This document shows, piece by piece, positions 16,110-25,417 of a DNA stretch of 36,613 bases (positions are counted from its first letter, which is position 1; each line of letters opens with the position of its first letter). Location of the stretch: the NCBI GenBank assembly GCA_019240755.1, contig JAFAXS010000070.1, positions 1 to 36,613 on the forward strand, written 5' to 3'. This stretch comes from Vulcanimicrobiota bacterium (GTDB lineage Bacteria > Vulcanimicrobiota > Vulcanimicrobiia > Vulcanimicrobiales > Vulcanimicrobiaceae). The notes beneath the pieces are model-generated. The model made no database searches and was not told the DNA's origin. It saw only the letters and a program-made list of their open reading frames with translations. The position numbers were made by a program, and so were the translations under genes.

Positions 16110-17627
16110 TTAGAACTGATACTGGAAGCCGAAGGTCGTTCGCCGGGACGCGTGCGTGATGTCGCGCTGCCCAAAGAACAGCTGCGTACCGGGCGCGATG
16201 TGCAGATTCCCGTAGAGATCGATCATCGGATAGTTAAGGCCGTAGATGCGCGTTTCGGCCCCAAAGCCACGCGCCGGCGCATACTGCGCCAGTACCCCGA
16301 GCTGCGAATAGAGCACGCCGCCGCCGACGCGGAAGTCGCCCTTGCGCTGTTCGAGAACCGCGTTGTACGTGGTGTTGGTTCCGATCGCGTTTGCGCCGAA
16401 CATCAGGCTGGTCTTGCCGTGCGGCAGGATCACGGCGTTGAGGTCGCCCAGCGGGCCCTGGCTCGTGGTCAACACCGGGTTCGGCGTCACCGCGTGCTGC
16501 TGCGAGAGGCCGCTCATTCGCAACTGAATCGCAACCAACTCGTGTGCGAGGCTCACGACTTTTCCGTGGAGCCGATCGCGCAGGGTCGGTGATACTCCGC
16601 GCGGTGCGGGGCTCGCACCGGGCGCCGGCGTCGCGCCCGTATCGACGCCCTGCACGCTGCTCGTGCCCCCCAGCTCTCCCAGCAACGAGTTTGCCTTCTG
16701 TAAGACGGCGTCGAGGTTGGCAATCGTGTTGCGAAGCTGCGCTTGCGTCTGCGGATCGCCGGTGACCGTTCTCAGGTCTTTCGCCAGCTCGGCCATGGTC
16801 TGCGTGGTGTCGGCAATGCCTTGCGTCGTCGCGAGCAAGTTGGCCTTGAACCTGGGATCGGTGGACAAGTCGCGCAACACCGCCATCGAGCGATTCAGGG
16901 AAACGGCGGTTGACTGAAACTGATCCAACAGCACGCCGACCTTCTTTGAATCGACGGTCGCCGCGTCGTTGAGCGTCGTCGAGAGCGCTGCGAGGTTGCC
17001 GCCGGCGGTTCCCAACGTGGATTGCAGCTCGCCGCCGAGCCCTAACAACTCGCCCGAGAGCCGCTGCATCGAGGACTTCGTCGTAACGGTGAGGTCGTTG
17101 GCGTTGTCGAGGGTCGTTTGCAGCGTGGCGAGAAGCTTGGGCGTCTTCGCTTGCAGCAGCGACATCACGTCGTCGAAGCGCCGCAGCTCGCCTTCACCCT
17201 GGGAGAGCAAGTCGGCGATGGAAACGCTGTTGATTCCCTGGGGTTGCTCCGCCACCGGCAGCACTTCGTGCGGCAGCAACGGGAGCGGTGGGGGCGCGTG
17301 CGGCGGCACGATGACCACGGAGGGCGAGCCGGTCAATGGAGCCTCGATCAAGAACTTCGACGCGGCAGGAATGTCGATGTCGCGGCTGATAGCGACGATC
17401 ACGTCCACGGTATTGTCGGGAAGCAGCTCGATCGATGCTACCGATCCGATGTCCACGCCGCTGAAGTACACTTGGGCGCCCGGCGTCACTCCCGCGGCGG
17501 AGCGGAAGTGCACGCCGACGCGATAGCCCGTATGCCGCGTCGCAAAATCGGTGATCACGTAAAAGACGCCGAAGAGCAACAACAGCGCCGTCATCGCAAA
17601 CGCCCCAACCTGGGCCTGCCTTGTCAT
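16110..17627 (-). CDS. mlaD: MCE/MlaD-family lipid-transport protein with outer-membrane-like C-terminal tail
   Basis: The 505-residue protein has one N-terminal membrane helix (VGAFAMTALLLLFGVFYVI). An MCE domain follows at about 35-115 (GYRVGVHFRSAAGVTPGAQV, VYFSGVDIGSVASIEL, PLTGSPSVVIVPP). A long helical region spans about 145-330 with repeated LLATLQTTLDN-like segments. A low-complexity Pro/Ala linker comes next. The last roughly 110 residues look like amphipathic beta strands (RVGGGVLYSQLGVLAQYA, ETRIYGLNYPMIDLYGNLHI, TQLFFGQRDI, RTTFGFQYQF) and end in Phe. MlaD proteins form rings that carry phospholipids between membranes; the helices could span the periplasm and the tail could insert in the outer membrane. 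ATG 17627 is chosen; TTG 17675 is an alternative. panE follows, while mlaE and mlaF are encoded about 6 kb away. Confidence 0.87.
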   Translation of the reverse strand: MTRQAQVGAFAMTALLLLFGVFYVITDFATRHTGYRVGVHFRSAAGVTPGAQVYFSGVDIGSVASIELLPDNTVDVIVAISRDIDIPAASKFLIEAPLTGSPSVVIVPPHAPPPLPLLPHEVLPVAEQPQGINSVSIADLLSQGEGELRRFDDVMSLLQAKTPKLLATLQTTLDNANDLTVTTKSSMQRLSGELLGLGGELQSTLGTAGGNLAALSTTLNDAATVDSKKVGVLLDQFQSTAVSLNRSMAVLRDLSTDPRFKANLLATTQGIADTTQTMAELAKDLRTVTGDPQTQAQLRNTIANLDAVLQKANSLLGELGGTSSVQGVDTGATPAPGASPAPRGVSPTLRDRLHGKVVSLAHELVAIQLRMSGLSQQHAVTPNPVLTTSQGPLGDLNAVILPHGKTSLMFGANAIGTNTTYNAVLEQRKGDFRVGGGVLYSQLGVLAQYAPARGFGAETRIYGLNYPMIDLYGNLHIAPGTQLFFGQRDITHASRRTTFGFQYQF

Positions 17628-17747
17628 GCGCAGCGTATTGGCGCTCCGCAAGTACAGTGCCTCGCCGACGTCCAAGCAAGCGCGCCATTATTATGAATAG
17701 CAGGAGCCGCCCCCAGAGCGCCGTAGTCTTTTCGCCGGAGGGCCGTT

Positions 17748-18197
17748 ATGGTGCAACGCCAGAATCTTGTTCAAGCGCCGGGCGTAGAGAGCTCGGGGGC
17801 ATTCGCAATTACGCTCGACGGTGAGTTCGACATCGCCGAGCGTGCCCGGCTGCTCGCGGCGTTCGCCGAAGCGACGAACTGGCCGCTCATTATCCTGGAT
17901 TTCGAGCGCACGAGGTACGTGGATTCCACAGTGCTCGACTGTCTGGTGGCCCTTGACCGAGCGGCGGCCAAGCGCGAATCGAAACTCATACTAGTAGGAC
18001 TTCGACCGGAAATCCGGCGAATTTTCGAGATCTGTGATCTTCATCGCCATTTCGACATTCGCCCTCAGTTCACTGAGGTTGCCACCAGGTTGCGGCTGAA
18101 TGGGGCTGACCTTCACCGCGTGACGCTGGTTGCGGAGCCGATTCCGGACGTTGGAGACATCGAAGCCCGTCGAACTGAGGTAATTGGTGAGTCTTAG
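17748..18197 (+). CDS. STAS-domain protein (anti-sigma antagonist-like)
   Basis: The 149-residue protein has GGAGG at 17737-17741 and ATG 17748. FAITLDGEFDIAERARLLAAF and LIILDFERTRYVDSTVLDCL form the STAS core, with Ser60 in the DST motif that is phosphorylated in SpoIIAA-type antagonists. LVGLRPEIRRIFEICDLHRHF matches the usual C-terminal helix. A 30-residue C-terminal extension beyond the STAS domain is unrecognised. It probably relays a partner-switch signal. A ribbon-helix-helix gene starts 4 bases after its stop, so the genes of this island are likely co-transcribed. The reading frame after its TAG stop stays open through the multidomain gene downstream. The gap of 120 bases to the divergent mlaD-like gene should contain both promoters. 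Confidence 0.88.
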   Translation: MVQRQNLVQAPGVESSGAFAITLDGEFDIAERARLLAAFAEATNWPLIILDFERTRYVDSTVLDCLVALDRAAAKRESKLILVGLRPEIRRIFEICDLHRHFDIRPQFTEVATRLRLNGADLHRVTLVAEPIPDVGDIEARRTEVIGES

Positions 18198-18201
18198 ACG
18201 C

Positions 18202-18441
18202 ATGAATGGATCCGAGGCGGCTCTTTCGCAACGAATCGGCGAGCCGCAAAACGCTCAACGCTTTACCGTCAATCTTTCGGCCGAGATCGGCGCGGAGTTG
18301 CGCGACATAGCGACGACGCATCGCGTGAGCGAGAGCTCCGTCGTAGAAATCGCGCTGCGCCATCTGTTCCGGCGCGTCAGCGCGCCGGCGCTCGGAACGT
18401 TTTTGCGAGAACGGGGAGCCTGTTTACGCCGGCGCGCGTAG
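18202..18441 (+). CDS. Ribbon-helix-helix (CopG-like) protein
   Basis: The 79-residue protein shows the CopG/MetJ/Arc pattern. QRFTVNLSAEIGAELRDIA is the beta strand and first helix, VSESSVVEIALRHLFRRV the second helix. The C-terminal tail is basic (LRERGACLRRRA). Proteins of this size usually bind DNA as dimers and act as autoregulators, antitoxins or plasmid-type repressors. No toxin gene is adjacent. ATG 18202 is chosen, 4 bases after the STAS stop; GTG 18184 would overlap the STAS gene and lacks support. The coding-like frame of the next gene already overlaps the last codons of this one. Either the two are translationally coupled, or a frameshift joins them. Confidence 0.75.
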   Translation: MNGSEAALSQRIGEPQNAQRFTVNLSAEIGAELRDIATTHRVSESSVVEIALRHLFRRVSAPALGTFLRERGACLRRRA

Positions 18442-18620
18442 ACCTCGGCATCGCACCCGGTGGAGAGCTCGGGCAACTCGCGCACGTACTGCGCGCGCTC
18501 GATGAAGCGTGCGCCGATCCGAAGTCCATCGACGCCTTCGCCGCCGCCCTGACCGAAACGCCGCCCCTCTGCATAACTGGCGCGGGCATCTTCGCGGCGT
18601 CAAGCGCCGATGTCCCGTTT
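18411..18620 (+). other. Coding-like upstream extension of the multidomain signalling gene, no normal start codon
   Basis: In the frame of the gene starting at 18621, these codons are all open and strongly protein-like: GELGQLAHVLRALDEACADP, then IDAFAAALTETPPLC, then GAGIFAASSADVPF. Third positions are GC-rich like real genes here. The frame is open back to the STAS stop at 18195-18197, but no ATG, GTG or TTG occurs in it before 18621. Candidates are CTG 18420 or ATC 18450, a frameshift from the ribbon-helix-helix gene near the T5 run at 18400-18404, or a sequence error. Confidence 0.6.
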
Positions 18621-20318
18621 TTGTTGACCGAGACGCGGTCCGTCAGCGCGACGACCATGCGGCGCTGGAGTCGCTGGCCGCTTCACCGGCTTTTTACTAG
18701 GATGAAGCCCACGCGGATCGCCCACCCCGCTGGCTTGGAGGGCCGGGCACTCGCGGTGCCCCTACGGTACGGCGCGCGCCGGTTCGTCGTCGTTGCTCCA
18801 CTCGCCTCGCAACCATCGGATGCGGCGCGCGAGGCCTTCTTCTCCATACTCGAGAGCGTGACGATTCCTTTTCGTGAAGAGCCGCCGGCGGCGTCCGCCG
18901 ATGTTCCGGCCTCCGACGCGAACCCGCGTATCGTGGCCCTCGCGCTCTGCGACCGCTTGCGCGCGGACTTCACCGAACTGCTGCGCCGGCGGGGTTGGTC
19001 CTTGCAGATCCGTTGGAGCATGCGACAGCTGTACGATCTGATTGCAACGGATCCCGACTCCAACCCGGCGCGTCCCGATCTCATCATCGTCGACCTCCAA
19101 GAATTACACGATCCCGTTGGAGTACTGCGGATGATTCGTCATGCGGATGCCGGTGACGCTCGAGTCGTCGCATTTGAATCCGCAGCGTCGCTCGGGCCGG
19201 AAGGACGGGCCCTTGCAGATATTCTTCTTCCGCACTCCGCGGGGAAGAATGAGATGTTCGCGGCGCTGAAGAGCGCCGTCCAAGCAATCCCCGAGAGCTT
19301 GCAGGCGCGCTTCGAACGTCGTCACCGGGCCGCACAGGATCGGTTCGACCGGATCCATTCACCCGATCGCCTGGCGGCCGTTGCCGCGGGTCAGGCTTCC
19401 GAAATCATGGCCGGCTGGGCCGGCGTCGCCCTACTGAGTCCTTCCGGTGCGCTCTACCGTGCCGAGCAGCCGCAATTCGGCGGCGCGATTCTTTCTTCGA
19501 TCCCGGCTGCGTTTCTCGACGATCGGCCGCTCTTCTGCAGCGCGGTCGACGAGGGATTTCTGGAAGCGGTCTTCGACGACGTGCGTCAGCAACAAGCGTT
19601 CTTGGAGCTGTCGCCCCTTTCAGCCGCGGCGATACCCTTGATCTCGGGGCGGCAGCGGCTCGGGCTGGTCTTGGCCACCTCACGATTTGAGAGCGCCCCG
19701 GCGGAAGCATTCGAGGCCCTGGAACGGCTCGCGCGATCGTTGACGAAGCGTTTCGCAGAGCTCACCTCCCGCGCTTCCGCGCTGCCGCAGTTCACCCGCG
19801 ACGCCTACTGGCAGCGCTGGTCGCACGACCGGCTCGACGTCGCCGTCTACCGTTCGGCGGAGTGTGAAATTCCTTGGCACTACCGGCCTATCGGCGCCTC
19901 TCGCGGCATCTTGGTCGTCGGTATGCCGGAGAATCGCCAGCTCCAGCGGCGGCTCACCGAAGAGCCCGCACTCGAGCGCCGCGAGCTCAGCGGCGCACTC
20001 GCGGCTTCACTCGAGCGCGCCGAAGGCTTCGCCTCACTATTGGACGGCGACCGGCGGACGATGCTGTACGCGACCCGCAAATTTCCGCCCCCGTTGGTCG
20101 TCGGCGAGCCCGGCCCGCATCTCGTCATGAGCGCCTCTCGCGACGTTACGATGGGCTCGGCGGCGCTCGAAGAATCGCGCGGCATCGTGATCTGCAACGA
20201 CGCGCTGCGGCCCTGGTTGGACGCGAGCCCCCCGATCGAGCAACTGCGCGAGCTCCTGGAGCGAGAGCGGCCCAGCGGTTTTGCGTCGCTCCTTACGCTA
20301 AGCTCTCAGCCTCGGTAA
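18621..20318 (+). CDS. Multidomain signalling protein: GAF-like, degenerate receiver, GAF-like, degenerate SpoIIE/PP2C-like
   Basis: From the first normal start (TTG 18621) the protein has 565 residues; the true N-terminus is probably upstream. GRALAVPLRYGARRFVVVAP (about 45-64) reads like the end of a GAF domain. RIVALALCDRLRADFTELL to ALKSAV is receiver-like, with a possible phospho-acceptor Asp in DLIIVDLQE. It lacks a clear acidic pair and the usual Lys-Pro. A second GAF-like part spans about 250-370 (AAAIPLISGRQRLGLVLATS). The C-terminus resembles SpoIIE/RsbU phosphatases (VAVYRSAECEIPWHYRP, MLYATRKFPPPLVV, RGIVICNDALRPWL). The metal-binding Asp of the usual IGDVxGHG is Met in LVVGMPENRQ, so catalysis is doubtful. 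It may act as a binding partner or sensor for the STAS protein. The 3' end overlaps the cheB-like gene by 26 bases. A possible frame change lies at 18656-18698. Confidence 0.65.
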   Translation: MLTETRSVSATTMRRWSRWPLHRLFTRMKPTRIAHPAGLEGRALAVPLRYGARRFVVVAPLASQPSDAAREAFFSILESVTIPFREEPPAASADVPASDANPRIVALALCDRLRADFTELLRRRGWSLQIRWSMRQLYDLIATDPDSNPARPDLIIVDLQELHDPVGVLRMIRHADAGDARVVAFESAASLGPEGRALADILLPHSAGKNEMFAALKSAVQAIPESLQARFERRHRAAQDRFDRIHSPDRLAAVAAGQASEIMAGWAGVALLSPSGALYRAEQPQFGGAILSSIPAAFLDDRPLFCSAVDEGFLEAVFDDVRQQQAFLELSPLSAAAIPLISGRQRLGLVLATSRFESAPAEAFEALERLARSLTKRFAELTSRASALPQFTRDAYWQRWSHDRLDVAVYRSAECEIPWHYRPIGASRGILVVGMPENRQLQRRLTEEPALERRELSGALAASLERAEGFASLLDGDRRTMLYATRKFPPPLVVGEPGPHLVMSASRDVTMGSAALEESRGIVICNDALRPWLDASPPIEQLRELLERERPSGFASLLTLSSQPR

Positions 20319-21261
20319 TCAGTCCCGTGATCGCGTCATTGACGCGAATCAAGTCCTGGCGAACCTCTTCGACTTGGTGCTCAAGGCGCTGGCCGGTGCG
20401 GGTGTCGCCGGCGCGGCGCGTCCGTACCGCGAGCCGCCGAAGGAGATCGTAGCGTTCTTGTAAGGTCCGCATCGCCGCCCAGAGCGCCGTTTCCAAGGAT
20501 CGGCTTTGGACGGCAAGCATCGAACTCTCGCTGTACGCGTGACCGGTACGGCAACGAAATCGCAAAACCGCTTCGTCGTCGACTTCCCACAGCGTTCCGC
20601 CGCAATCCGGACACGTAAACACCGAAGGAGCTCCGACCTCCCGTTCGTCGCGTGCGATCGACGGCGGCTGGGGCTGACTTTTCGGTTCGTTCAGCCATTG
20701 CAGCATAGCGGCTACGATATCGTCTGCCGCGTAGATACCGTCGACGGCGCCCGTGCGAATCGCGTTGCGCGGCATATCCGGAAACTGTGCGTCCTCCGGA
20801 TCCTGTACGATGGCCTTTCCCCCCGCCTCATGGATCGCCAACAGGCCCGCAACGCCGTCATCGAGCGTCCCGGAGAGCAAAACGCCGCAAACGGAGTTCA
20901 TGTACGTCGTAGCCGCGCTGCGAAACAGAACATCGATCGACGGCCGGTGATTGTTCTCCATAGGACCGCGGAAGACGCGCATCACGCTGTCTTCGACCAG
21001 GAGGTGATGGTCGGGCGGTGCGACGATGATGCGGCCGGGCGCCACCGGCGCGCCGTCGATCGCGTGGGTCGCAAAGAGCGGGCCACTCCGCGCGAGGAGG
21101 TGCGGTAGCGCCGACACGCTCGACGCCGGAACGTGCGTCGCGACGAAAATCGCCGCGGGAAAGTCGCTCGGCAAGTCCGCTGCAATCCGTTGCAGCGGCT
21201 CCAGCGCACCGGCGGAACCCCCGACGACGATGGCCGCAAATCCCTCGTCCGGCTGTGCCAT
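20293..21261 (-). CDS. CheB-type protein-glutamate methylesterase with C-terminal zinc ribbon
   Basis: The 322-residue protein has the CheB catalytic domain without a receiver domain. Ser16 in VVGGSAGAL, His43 in ATHVP and Asp135 in SGTLDDGVAG match the catalytic triad. A C-terminal zinc ribbon (CPDCGG ... FRCRTGHAYS) and a helical tail follow, as in other receiver-less CheB-like proteins. Classical CheB removes methyl groups from chemoreceptors, but no receptor or CheA is present, so the substrate is unknown. ATG 21261 places the catalytic domain at the very start, as usual. ATG 21303 is possible and would overlap the start codon of the divergent CheB-CheR gene within CATG at 21301-21304. 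The gene is convergent with the multidomain signalling gene. Confidence 0.88.
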   Translation of the reverse strand: MAQPDEGFAAIVVGGSAGALEPLQRIAADLPSDFPAAIFVATHVPASSVSALPHLLARSGPLFATHAIDGAPVAPGRIIVAPPDHHLLVEDSVMRVFRGPMENNHRPSIDVLFRSAATTYMNSVCGVLLSGTLDDGVAGLLAIHEAGGKAIVQDPEDAQFPDMPRNAIRTGAVDGIYAADDIVAAMLQWLNEPKSQPQPPSIARDEREVGAPSVFTCPDCGGTLWEVDDEAVLRFRCRTGHAYSESSMLAVQSRSLETALWAAMRTLQERYDLLRRLAVRTRRAGDTRTGQRLEHQVEEVRQDLIRVNDAITGLITEAESLA

Positions 21262-21301
21262 TCGAGGGCTTTGTTCCCGGATTGCGAAGGACTCATGCGT
21301 C

Positions 21302-23881
21302 ATGCGTGACGGGAAGCCGCTCGACGGCCCGTCTGTTGTCGTTATCGGCGCATCTGCCGGCGGTATTGAAGCACTGGAGCGGCTCGTTGCGGCCCTGCCC
21401 GCCAGCTTTGCGGCTCCGATCATCATCGCCCAGCATGCCGATCCAAAAGTGCCCAGTCATCTGCCGCAGATCTTGTCGCGGCACACGGCAATGGATATCG
21501 TTTCGATCCAAGAGCAGGTCGAGACGCTCGCTCCGGGCACGATCTACGTCGCAATCGCGGGCAGAAACTTGATCGTCCGCGGTTCGGAGATTACCGGCGC
21601 GCCGCGGCGACGCGGTCATCCAATTCCCTCGATCGATGCGCTCTTCACCAGCGCCGCCGAAAGTTACGGCGACCGAGTCATCGCGGTTATCTTGACGGGC
21701 ATGGGCACGGACGGCGTCTCGGGCGTCCGCGCCGTCAAAGAGCACGGCGGGACGGTTCTCGTGCAGGAGCCCGAATCTGCGGCCTTCCCTTCGTTGCCGG
21801 CCGCCATACCGTTGAACCACATTGACTTCACGGCGAACTTGGAATCGTTGCCGTCGTTATTGACCACCCTCGCTGCGAGCGATCACCTCGGCAACGAACT
21901 GGCAAACGCCGATACGCTGCGAGCATTTCTCGATCAACTGCGCAGTCGCAGCGGCATAGACTTCCGGCAATACAAGACGCCCACCATCGTTCGCCGGCTT
22001 TCCCGGCTCATGGCAGCGTCCGGTCACTCGTCGCTCTCGGACTACATGCGCTATCTCGGCAACAATCCGGACGCCTATCAACGGTTGATCAGCACGTTCC
22101 TGATCAAGGTCACCGGCTTCTTTCGCGATCCGTCCCTGTTCGCACACTTGCGCGAAAGCATTCTTCCGGAGCTTGTAGAACGCGTTCGAAAAACGAAGGG
22201 CGAGCTGCGGCTCTGGTCGGCGGGATGCGCCACCGGCGAAGAGGCGTATTCGTTGGCGATCACGCTTGCCGACTTGATCGGCGGCGACTTCGATTCATTG
22301 CCCATTCGGATCTTCGCGACGGATCTCGATGGAGATGCGATCGCGTCGGCGCGGCGCGGCATCTACCCGCTCAGCGCCTTCAAAGAGATGCCACCGGAGC
22401 TTCTGGCCAAATACTTCACACGCGTCGATGACGCGTATCAGGTTACGAAACGGGTCCGGAATCTGACCGTTTTCGGCGAGTACGATCTGGGGCAGCGTGC
22501 GCCGTTTCCGCGCATCGACCTGGTTCTCTGCCGAAACGTGCTGATCTATTTTACGAAGGAGCTGCAGCAGCGCACCCTGCACCTCTTTGCCTTCTCATTG
22601 CGACCCGGCGGCTTTCTCGTGCTCGGTAAGGCCGAGACGACTAACCCGCTCCCGCAATACTTTGCGATGATGAATCCGGCCCTGAAGATCTTTCGCCGTC
22701 AGGGCGACCGGCTGCTGATTCCGGCGCCCGCGATGACGGACGGCGGTTCGATCGCGGAGCGCCCGATGCCGCGACGGATCGGGATTCGCTCAATCCCGAT
22801 GATGCGCAAGCCTATCGCGGAGACGACTGCGCCTCGCTGGACGTTGGTGGATCGCCTTGGCGCATTTCTCTTCGAATCGCCGATCGGCGTCGTCGTCGTC
22901 GACCGAAACTACGACATCCTGACGATCAATCAGGCGGCGCGAACGCTGCTCGGGATTCATGGGCAAGGAATCGGTGAGGACCTGATCCACTTGGCGCAAG
23001 TGCCCGCCAACGAGCTGAAAGCGCTCGTCGACGGCGCCTTTCGGGCCGACCGGCAGGAAGCGCGCGAGATCGAGGTCACGGATGCTGCGGTCGGCGAGAC
23101 GAGATGCTTGCATGCCGCCTGTTATCCCGATCCCACCGCCAGTAAAGAGGCTAAGGTAGAGACCGTTTTCGTGCTGATCGTCGACGTCACCGATCAGTCT
23201 AAATGGCGACGGCGGCTCGAAAAGGAAAACGCCGAAAGCACTACGAGTCTCACGCACGTTCAGGCGCGCAACGAGGAGCTCGTCGAGCGACAGCGGCTCC
23301 TCATGGAAGCGAACACCGAGCTGACTTCCATCAACTCGGACTTGCGCAGCGCCAACGAACACCTCCTCATCGCGGCCGAAGAGGCCGAGGCCTCCGCCGA
23401 GGAAGTGGAAACGCTCAACGAAGAGATGCAGGCCACCAGCGAAGAGCTCGAAACGCTCAACGAAGAGCTGCAGGCGACTGTCGAGGAGCTGAACACCACC
23501 AACGAAGAGCTCGCCGCTCGCAGCGGCGAACTGGAGGTCTTGGCGAGGCAGCGTCAGGAGCAACTCGACGAAGCGCAACACTCACTCGCGACGCTGCGCG
23601 CGGTCATCGAAGAGATACCGTTAGTCGTATGCCTCCTGGATGAACGATCTCGGATTTTGATTGCCTCTCGCCAATATCTCGCTCTCGCGCACGGCGACTC
23701 GCGGCTACCGCGCGTCGGCGATGCTTGGCGAAATCCGCCGAGAACGATACAAGTGAGCGACGACGGTGGCGGCCGAACGGCCTACTCGATCGTCCCGATC
23801 GCACTACCGCACGACGGCAACGACGTCATGCTCCTGCTAAAAAGCGACGACAAACAGACGAAAGAAGCTAGATCGGGATAG
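21302..23881 (+). CDS. CheB-CheR fusion with PAS domains and coiled coil
   Basis: The 859-residue protein contains five parts. The CheB methylesterase (about 10-190) has Ser18 in IGASAGG, His45 in AQHAD and Asp137 in GMGTDGVSG. The CheR methyltransferase (about 205-465) has TFLIKVTGFFRD, the SAM-binding SAGCATGEE at 306-314 and DLVLCRNVLIYF. A PAS domain (about 510-620) includes ESPIGVVVVDRNYDILTIN. A long coiled coil (about 640-770) carries the Glu/Leu repeat EELETLNEELQATVEELNTT. A PAS-like C-terminus follows. Both active sites look intact, so one polypeptide could add and remove methyl groups. Such fusions usually sit in two-component or stress systems rather than flagellar chemotaxis. ATG 21302 has AAGGA about 10 bases upstream. 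The open frame before it back to 21026 is an antisense shadow. Confidence 0.92.
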   Translation: MRDGKPLDGPSVVVIGASAGGIEALERLVAALPASFAAPIIIAQHADPKVPSHLPQILSRHTAMDIVSIQEQVETLAPGTIYVAIAGRNLIVRGSEITGAPRRRGHPIPSIDALFTSAAESYGDRVIAVILTGMGTDGVSGVRAVKEHGGTVLVQEPESAAFPSLPAAIPLNHIDFTANLESLPSLLTTLAASDHLGNELANADTLRAFLDQLRSRSGIDFRQYKTPTIVRRLSRLMAASGHSSLSDYMRYLGNNPDAYQRLISTFLIKVTGFFRDPSLFAHLRESILPELVERVRKTKGELRLWSAGCATGEEAYSLAITLADLIGGDFDSLPIRIFATDLDGDAIASARRGIYPLSAFKEMPPELLAKYFTRVDDAYQVTKRVRNLTVFGEYDLGQRAPFPRIDLVLCRNVLIYFTKELQQRTLHLFAFSLRPGGFLVLGKAETTNPLPQYFAMMNPALKIFRRQGDRLLIPAPAMTDGGSIAERPMPRRIGIRSIPMMRKPIAETTAPRWTLVDRLGAFLFESPIGVVVVDRNYDILTINQAARTLLGIHGQGIGEDLIHLAQVPANELKALVDGAFRADRQEAREIEVTDAAVGETRCLHAACYPDPTASKEAKVETVFVLIVDVTDQSKWRRRLEKENAESTTSLTHVQARNEELVERQRLLMEANTELTSINSDLRSANEHLLIAAEEAEASAEEVETLNEEMQATSEELETLNEELQATVEELNTTNEELAARSGELEVLARQRQEQLDEAQHSLATLRAVIEEIPLVVCLLDERSRILIASRQYLALAHGDSRLPRVGDAWRNPPRTIQVSDDGGGRTAYSIVPIALPHDGNDVMLLLKSDDKQTKEARSG

Positions 23882-24638
23882 GGCCCGTCTCGGCGCCGGC
23901 CAAAAATTGCTGCACGATGGGGTTCGTCGAGCTCCGAATCGCGGCGGCGGTATCGTATGCGATGATGGCCCCTTCGAAGAGCATCGCTACGTAATCCGCC
24001 ATTGCAAAGATCGAGTCGAGGTCGTGCGAGATGACCACCGCGGTGCCTGCGAGCTTATCGCGCAAGCGCAGGATCGTATCCGTGATCAGGTTAGTGACGA
24101 TCGGATCGAGCCCGGTCGTCGGCTCGTCGTAGAGCACCAACTCCGGGCGCGTCACGATCGCCCGCGCGAAGCCGGCCCGCTTGAGCATTCCGCCCGACAG
24201 CTCTCCCGGCAACGCATCGTAGGCGTTCGCTAGGCCGACGCTGTCGAGCGCGTCCATGACCGTTCGGTGAATCTCCGCATGGGTCAGGCGCGTGTGCTCG
24301 CGCAGCGGTAAGGCGACGTTGTCCCCTACGCTGAGACTGTCCAACAGCGCGGAGAACTGGAACGACAGGCTGATCTTCTGGCGGATGACGTTGCGCTGCT
24401 CCTCCGAGACGTGGCAGATGTCCTGATCGCGCACGAAGACGTGCCCCTCGCTCGGCAACAAGAGCCCGTCGATCAGCCGTAAGATCGTGGACTTCCCCGC
24501 GCCGGAGAGGCCGATGATGCAGGTGATCGCCCCTTCGACGATGTCGAGGGTACAGTTTCTTAGGATGATGCGGCTTCCGAAGGCCAGCGCGGTGTTCTCG
24601 AGCCGCGCGATCACGTTGGCGCCGGCGCCGTTGCGCAT
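23868..24638 (-). CDS. mlaF: MlaF-type ABC transporter ATP-binding protein
   Basis: The 256-residue ATPase has Walker A GLSGAGKST, the ABC signature LSGGMLKRAGFARAI, and Walker B LVLYDEPTTGLDP followed by a switch His in VISHDLDSI. The sequence is closest to MlaF/Ttg2A, the energising subunit of phospholipid ABC transporters that work with MlaE and MlaD. ATG 24638 is two bases after the mlaE stop; the longer open frame to 24911 is a shadow inside mlaE. It overlaps the CheB-CheR gene tail by 14 bases on the opposite strand. It is the last gene of the run that begins with the small lipoprotein and gmk. Confidence 0.93.
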   Translation of the reverse strand: MRNGAGANVIARLENTALAFGSRIILRNCTLDIVEGAITCIIGLSGAGKSTILRLIDGLLLPSEGHVFVRDQDICHVSEEQRNVIRQKISLSFQFSALLDSLSVGDNVALPLREHTRLTHAEIHRTVMDALDSVGLANAYDALPGELSGGMLKRAGFARAIVTRPELVLYDEPTTGLDPIVTNLITDTILRLRDKLAGTAVVISHDLDSIFAMADYVAMLFEGAIIAYDTAAAIRSSTNPIVQQFLAGAETGPIPI

Positions 24639-24640
24639 CA

Positions 24641-25417
24641 CTAGCGGCCGCCGAACAGCAAGAACGAGAGCAAGAAGTTCGACGCAAAGATCAGTATGAT
24701 CGCGAGCACGACCGCAAACGTCGTCGAACGGCCGACGCCGGCAGCGCCGCCTCGGGTGGAGAGACCCTGATAGGCGCCGACCAGCGCGATGATCGCGGCA
24801 AAGACGACCGACTTGACCAACCCTTTGACGACGTCGCTGAAGTCGATTGATTCGCGGATGGACGACACGAACGAATCGTAGGGGATGTGGGCGTACGTCT
24901 GCGCGATCCACGCGCCGCCGGCGATCGAGACCACGTCGGCAAAGATCGTCAGCAGCGGCAGCATCAGCAAGAGCGCCAAGAGCCGCGGAACGACCAGAAA
25001 GCGCGGCGGTTCGACGCCCATCGAGCGCAGCGCCTCAATTTGCTCGGTAACGACCATCGAGCCCAGCTCGGCGGCGATCGCTGCGCCGACGCGGCCGGCC
25101 ACCACGACGCCGGTGAGCATCGGGCCGAGCTCCCGGACCGAGGCGTAAGCGACCGCGCCGCCGACCAAGTTGGAGACGCCGTAGGCCACGGCTTGTTGCG
25201 CCGATTCCAGCGAGATCACCATCCCGGTGAACAGCGACGTTAGGCAGACGATCAGCAGCGATTGCACGCCGAGCAGCGCCGCCTGGGAAATCGTCTCGGC
25301 AATTCGAATTCGCAGCTGCAGCATGAAGCCGAGCGACTCCGCCGAGAGCAGCGCCAGCCCGCCGGCGTACTCGAAGAAGTCGATCGTTGCCCGGCCGAAC
25401 CGGTCGAGCGCCCTCAC
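24641..25417 (-). CDS. mlaE: MlaE-type phospholipid ABC transporter permease
   Basis: The 258-residue membrane protein carries the MlaE family blocks LTSLFTGMVISLE, VRELGPMLTGVVVAGRVGAA and IAAELGSMVVTEQIEALRSM, followed by VVPRLLALLLMLPLL. It has five or six membrane helices in the expected order. With MlaF it would move phospholipids between the inner membrane and the MlaD ring. The start is GTG 25417, which overlaps the upstream stop as GTGA. No mlaD, mlaB or mlaC gene lies in this run; an MCE/MlaD gene is at 16110-17627. Confidence 0.93.
   Translation of the reverse strand: MRALDRFGRATIDFFEYAGGLALLSAESLGFMLQLRIRIAETISQAALLGVQSLLIVCLTSLFTGMVISLESAQQAVAYGVSNLVGGAVAYASVRELGPMLTGVVVAGRVGAAIAAELGSMVVTEQIEALRSMGVEPPRFLVVPRLLALLLMLPLLTIFADVVSIAGGAWIAQTYAHIPYDSFVSSIRESIDFSDVVKGLVKSVVFAAIIALVGAYQGLSTRGGAAGVGRSTTFAVVLAIILIFASNFLLSFLLFGGR

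Follow-up and report, generated by a model that had tools for sequence, protein, structure and literature searches.

This study examined a signalling island on a 36,613-nucleotide stretch of DNA from a Vulcanimicrobiota bacterium (contig JAFAXS010000070.1 of assembly GCA_019240755.1). The stretch, hereafter called the window, makes up an entire contig (C8); the genome comprises 174 contigs and 2.59 Mb. Between mlaD and an mlaF-type ABC gene, it carries five genes encoding a STAS-domain protein, a putative ribbon-helix-helix (RHH) protein, a GAF/receiver/GAF/PP2C-like protein (GAFp), a stand-alone CheB, and a CheB-CheR fusion (CheBR). The five reading frames had been located by an earlier note made from the sequence alone, and each was confirmed at its place. 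The gene set of the island is real and conserved. The features, in window coordinates, are as follows.

17748..18197, plus strand: STAS-domain protein, 149 aa, accessory (PF01740, TIGR00377, alignment)
18184..18441, plus strand: putative RHH protein, 85 aa, TTG start (alignment, predicted fold)
about 18438..20318, plus strand: GAFp, with GAF, receiver-like, GAF, and degenerate PP2C domains, about 626 aa
18915..19286, plus strand: receiver-like domain of GAFp (alignment, weak CheY-like matches, fold)
19803..20300, plus strand: PP2C/SpoIIE-like domain of GAFp, a putative pseudo-phosphatase (motif alignment)
20293..about 21261, minus strand: stand-alone CheB methylesterase (PF01339)
21302..23881, plus strand: CheBR, a CheB-CheR_N-CheR-PAS-coil-PAS fusion, 859 aa (Pfam, alignment)
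23390..23518, plus strand: six tandem heptads at CheBR aa 697-739, proposed as a built-in methylation substrate

The STAS, RHH, and GAFp reading frames overlap in an operon-like manner. CheB is convergent with GAFp and divergent from CheBR; because its strand is opposite to that of the other four genes, the five do not form one operon. The 3' ends of GAFp and CheB overlap by 26 bases (20293-20318), and the divergent starts of CheB (probably near 21261) and CheBR are about 40 bases or less apart.

The stand-alone CheB matched PF01339 (E 2e-51); it has no receiver and ends in a Cys4-type ribbon and a helical tail. CheBR matched the Pfam families CheB (3e-48), CheR_N (4e-15), CheR (2e-49), and PAS_8 (2e-6). 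It thus carries on one chain the Ser-His-Asp triad of CheB, CheR_N, a CheR domain with its S-adenosylmethionine (SAM) motif, and PAS, with a coil of E-E heptads between CheR and the C-terminal PAS domain. The earlier note had described the CheB triad and the CheR SAM motif as intact, which was borne out for CheBR and for every aligned homologue: the triad, the SAM motif, and the FFRD/RNVLIYF motifs are intact in all 16 CheBR proteins aligned. A long CheB frame in another genome (G076:C28) was rejected as a fusion because it contains neither a CheR motif nor the heptads and has a different architecture. In known CheB-CheR-PAS fusion proteins, which often carry a histidine kinase or GGDEF-EAL, the same domain order (CheB-CheR_N-CheR-PAS-coil-PAS) and the same E-E heptads are found; the window CheBR differs from them in having no C-terminal kinase or cyclase and, in its class, in being paired with SpoIIE or pseudo-SpoIIE genes.

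Both enzymes of canonical chemotaxis adaptation (methyl-accepting chemotaxis protein [MCP], CheR, CheB) are therefore present together with the methylation-site consensus, but no MCP or CheW was detected in the genome or genus. The MCP signalling domain (PF00015) was found in none of the 18 genus genomes, the window genome included, and neither was CheW (PF01584), whereas MCPs occur in 72 of the 117 class genomes. Within the genus, CheB is confined to the five genomes that carry the island, and the window genome encodes just two CheB domains, the stand-alone CheB among them. These findings rule out a hidden che cluster elsewhere. The lack of MCP and CheW, which the earlier note had reported locally, thus holds across the genome and the genus, and a complete che cluster nearby, an alternative source of the CheB and CheR proteins, was looked for and not found in the genome.

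The earlier note had suggested searching for a substrate with conserved Glu/Gln pairs. A strong candidate was found inside CheBR itself, where the note had overlooked it: an array of six heptads (ASAEEVET-LNEEMQA-TSEELET-LNEELQA-TVEELNT-TNEELAA) between CheR and the last PAS domain. All six heptads match the MCP methylation consensus [ASTG]xx[EQ][EQ]xx[ASTG], whereas shuffled sequences gave 0.8 matches when composition was preserved (p 5e-5) and 2.3 when heptads were preserved (p 0.007). As in the methylation region of an MCP, the sites lie on a conserved coiled coil, although no MCP profile match occurs in the genome. Among 15 CheBR proteins (the other 14 being 44-74% identical to the window protein), the array is the most conserved 36-residue stretch, with 75% of positions invariant versus 20% overall; the invariant share is 36% in the CheR domain, 17% in the CheB domain, 12% in the coil upstream of the array, and 6% downstream. 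Most codons of the array core vary synonymously while the residues are unchanged, which rules out an artefact of an antisense gene.

A search of the 117 class genomes returned one array match per genome in 19 genomes. Eighteen of these matches lie within CheB-CheR fusions, two of which are cut by contig ends, and the remaining one is a weak match in G109. With a single match per genome and essentially all of them in the fusion, no second array-bearing protein is available as a substrate. Among the first 18 loci from a genome-wide scan were fusions with tandem heptads from Chloroflexi, Proteobacteria, Cyanobacteria, Firmicutes, Bacteroidetes, and Polyangiales, in which the array follows CheR and precedes varied C-terminal domains (PAS, GGDEF-EAL). 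The exceptions were L132, which has two three-repeat runs and falls below the cut-off of at least four tandem heptads, and L138, which bears an array and has no CheB part. Across 236 loci with 4,994 open frames, this cut-off recovered 31 CheB-CheR frames and 19 others; the 19 comprised further CheB-CheR fusions, cut pieces thereof, a single frame that directly follows a split CheB/CheR pair, and a protein with CheR only. No unrelated frame among the 4,994 reached four heptads, which rules out the array as a general coiled-coil feature. Judged from these comparisons, the array appears to be the best candidate for what CheB and CheR modify. In one Chloroflexi metagenome-assembled genome (L133 198-8615, JAHDEN010000221.1), three CheB-CheR fusion genes form a tandem series, and every one of them has a separate E-E heptad array.

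We further analyzed the neighbours of CheBR. CheBR-type fusions occur in 18 class genomes, and GAFp stands beside eight of them. In five more (G061, G064, G073, G097, and G068), an intact SpoIIE gene lies directly downstream of CheBR on the same strand, with the two genes overlapping by 4 bases at one extreme and lying about 160 bases apart at the other. These SpoIIE proteins (E 6e-40 to 2e-36) carry PAS or GAF sensors, and three of the five are fused to an RsbW-like HATPase_c_2 kinase (L076, L077, and L079), so that a single protein encoded downstream of CheB-CheR combines a phosphatase with an anti-sigma-like kinase. Given how rare SpoIIE genes are (two in the window genome), they are very unlikely to lie beside CheBR by chance. 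The link between CheB/CheR and the PP2C family drawn in the earlier note thus gains independent support from these five loci.

GAFp yielded weak GAF matches only in Pfam, and the SpoIIE profile PF07228 did not match it. Its predicted model (predicted local distance difference test score 80) consists of GAF, receiver, GAF, and a C-terminal domain of mixed strands and helices, and the nearest solved structures included receiver-GAF histidine kinases (E 4e-9). RssB, known from Pseudomonas and E. coli, is a receiver plus PP2C-like protein whose second half is the degenerate PP2C-like domain. The GAFp model, in which a PP2C-like fold appears to follow the receiver, matched P. aeruginosa RssB (Foldseek E 2e-7, probability 1.0) with a high root-mean-square deviation, as expected from the GAF domain inserted in GAFp. 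GAFp differs from RssB in its two extra GAF domains and its CheB/CheR neighbours, and RssB was not among its sequence-profile matches. The receiver-like domain matched CheY-like chains weakly, and RssB and Spo0F by fold; in its PD-x-x-x-x-D motif, one Asp (alignment D219) is invariant in all eight copies, but the acidic pair and the Lys are not kept.

In the PP2C domain of GAFp, the GGD and GDVxGHG metal motifs are deleted and YTDG is changed to CNDA, which explains why GAFp aligns only weakly with SpoIIE proteins (profile-profile E 5e-5, probability 67%). The metal-binding Asp motifs are absent, in keeping with the earlier note, which had called the module degenerate, and an active phosphatase is ruled out on motifs. 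With these motifs lost, GAFp is best read as a pseudo-phosphatase, and it remains under constraint. At the position where its orthologues start (an ATG or GTG that overlaps the RHH stop or closely follows it), GAFp has no ATG, GTG, or TTG; the window and the closest relative (L004) both show GTA there (GTAG and GTAA, respectively). The candidate starts are GTA at 18438, an in-frame CTG at 18420, and TTG at 18621, and translation may involve a non-standard start or coupled re-initiation.

Beyond marginal matches, GAFp relatives were found in 8 of the 117 class genomes; a profile search of the phylum confined the family to the same three genera of one family, and a genome-wide scan with GAFp returned no relatives. 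The core of RHH, GAFp, and CheBR is kept in 8/8 copies across the three genera, with RHH directly upstream of GAFp and CheBR linked (the G031 locus is spread over two contigs, and the RHH gene of G058 lies on a second contig). A separate CheB stands between GAFp and CheBR in six copies; in the other two (G058 and G059), GAFp is followed directly by CheBR on the same strand. STAS was found in only three of the eight copies and also accompanies RHH in one genome that has no module, so it is ruled out as a core part. Taken as a whole, the interpretation in the earlier note was upheld in its conserved neighbourhood, its degenerate SpoIIE-like module, and its lack of a che cluster, and was set aside where it made STAS a defining part.

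The RHH protein had no Pfam match. Its model, built from an alignment of 11 homologues (A3), shows a strand (26-29) followed by two helices (33-46 and 50-64). The nearest solved structures to this monomer model were CopG and CopASO, with weak matches (E>1, probability up to 0.85), which is consistent with a putative ribbon-helix-helix DNA-binding regulator. An alternative start lies at an ATG at 18202, and the C-terminal tail G-x-C-L-R-R-R is conserved. A related RHH family occurs in other class genomes (L227, L229-L233) as single, paired, or triple copies with a similar Gly- and Arg-rich C-terminal tail. These relatives are mostly flanked by clpC-like and branched-chain-permease-like genes and show no tie to CheB/CheR.

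On the basis of these findings, we tentatively propose, at somewhat less than even confidence, that the island encodes a receptor-free methylation and demethylation module in which the helix of CheBR is itself the substrate, a PP2C-family protein is the partner, and a pseudo-phosphatase delivers the output to RHH. The proposal draws on the conserved gene set, the intact catalytic motifs, the lack of a detectable MCP or CheW, the lost PP2C metal motifs, the near-exclusive conserved array, and the CheBR-SpoIIE linkage; from these we infer that the array becomes methylated, GAFp is the receiver of the signal, and RHH carries the output. CheBR would dimerise through its coil, and its CheR domain would methylate glutamates of the six heptads in that coil, acting either in cis or on the other subunit of the dimer. 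The CheB domain, together with the separate CheB, would demethylate them. PAS input and methyl count would jointly set the state of the coil, with slow methyl feedback balancing the PAS input as in chemoreceptors, and this state would pass by direct contact to the PP2C-family partner. In related genera, the partner would be an active SpoIIE phosphatase and the output a partner switch. In the window, GAFp would fill this role as a binding switch, retaining or releasing the RHH protein encoded with it and, where present, STAS.

Several observations weigh against this proposal. The E-E-L heptad is also well suited to forming a coiled coil, and an exact fit to the stricter EExxA(S/T) form is limited to two sites (EEMQAT and EELQAT). 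Because CheBR lacks an output domain of the kinase or cyclase type, contact must be the route by which the signal leaves. No PP2C neighbour was found in the visible DNA of 5 of the 18 class CheBR loci, some owing to contig ends, and a motif scan found no PP2C genes beside CheB-CheR fusions of other phyla. Of the island proteins, GAFp evolves fastest (45% identity in the nearest relative versus 62-91% for its neighbours). RHH is present in three genus genomes that have no module, and thus need not serve it. In Bacillus cereus, the S-helix of RsbK, which acts upstream of RsbY (PP2C), RsbV (STAS), RsbW, and sigmaB, is methylated by RsbM, and this modification of the signalling helix holds sigmaB off (PMC4574943); there, the helix that can be methylated belongs to a separate kinase, and no esterase takes part.

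The same precedent, with enzyme and substrate on separate proteins (PMC4574943), favours the closest rival, in which the target of CheBR and CheB is some other protein that is not an MCP, such as GAFp or an unlinked coiled-coil sensor, and the array is a mechanically fixed dimerising signalling helix; E-E-L is often repeated in coiled coils. We consider this explanation unlikely, though a serious contender. The coils flanking the array vary freely, whereas the array is fixed, surface Glu pairs and small residues included, and the search of the class genomes offered no alternative array-bearing substrate.

A classical partner switch would have STAS phosphorylated by an unlinked RsbW-like kinase, GAFp as a cryptically active phosphatase, and CheBR tuning GAFp. 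The STAS protein (PF01740, E 3e-12) keeps the D-S-T phospho-acceptor motif (D59 S60 T61), and so combines the STAS fold with the D-S-[ST] acceptor of RsbV/SpoIIAA-type proteins; it has Val in place of the DSTGL Gly, a position at which anti-sigma antagonists usually carry Gly. No linked RsbW kinase or sigma factor lies within the island. Elsewhere, the genome encodes 11 HATPase_c_2 matches (RsbW-like kinases), three of them in short frames, and two intact SpoIIE proteins; the statement in the earlier note that RsbW is absent is thus right locally and wrong for the genome. These kinases and phosphatases, the retained acceptor, and the operon-like overlap of the first three genes fit such a switch, but the deleted and changed metal motifs of GAFp and the lack of STAS in 5/8 module copies make it improbable. 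The island resembles the HsbR-HsbA and RsbU-RsbV partner switches in pairing a STAS antagonist with a PP2C-family protein (PMC6482189), but it has no local RsbW or sigma factor, its PP2C domain has no metal site, and its STAS is optional.

The location of the island raises another explanation, namely that STAS is an MlaB analogue of the neighbouring Mla lipid transport system and that the island has simply inserted at a site between mlaF and mlaD, or that it regulates lipid transport. MlaB is a STAS protein, and every RHH, STAS, or module copy in the genus lies exactly between mlaF and mlaD, whereas mlaE-mlaF-mlaD is mostly contiguous in genus relatives that have no island. In the window, the opposite-strand island splits the mlaE-mlaF/mlaD operon (16110-25417). 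Intermediate states are seen in relatives (L058, L069, and L071), the gaps holding RHH alone in two genomes and STAS plus RHH in one. We regard this explanation as improbable too, and marginally the more so. STAS is on the strand opposite to mlaD, its profile scores favour an anti-sigma antagonist (TIGR00377, 46.8 bits) over MlaB (15 bits), and in other genera the RHH-GAFp-CheBR core sits at other genome positions (L018 and L021), which indicates that the unit is the core and not the mla site. A decaying remnant of a lost chemotaxis system is very improbable: other genera of the class have MCPs that this genus does not and GAFp diverges fast, but the catalytic motifs are all intact, gene order is kept across three genera, and CheBR and CheB, judged by omega, are under purifying selection (omega about 0.12 for CheBR, 0.20 for CheB, 0.11 for RHH, and about 0.35 for GAFp).

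The proposed receptor-free module resembles RsbM-RsbK-RsbY, in which a CheR-type enzyme methylates a non-MCP signalling helix and controls a PP2C/STAS partner switch; for the island, such methylation would be the analogous step. The B. cereus system has a histidine kinase sensor and an active phosphatase, whereas the window has a degenerate PP2C partner and unites methyltransferase, esterase, and helix in one protein.

What CheB-CheR fusion proteins modify has, to our knowledge, not been established, and we found neither a study of their substrate nor a prior description of the array in the open literature (most subscription journals were outside the search). The short, invariant, receptor-like array in nearly every fusion examined makes the substrate question testable with one purified protein. 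It is possible, though we hold it with less assurance than the proposal for the island itself, that CheB-CheR fusions across bacteria are self-contained, chemoreceptor-free methyl-memory devices, which in this lineage drive a pseudo-phosphatase that controls an RHH regulator. Methylation of the array would mean that one polypeptide can achieve graded sensory adaptation with no chemoreceptor involved. The RsbM-RsbK precedent, in which methylation controls partner switching, would be broadened by the association with SpoIIE phosphatases and, in the window, with a pseudo-phosphatase.

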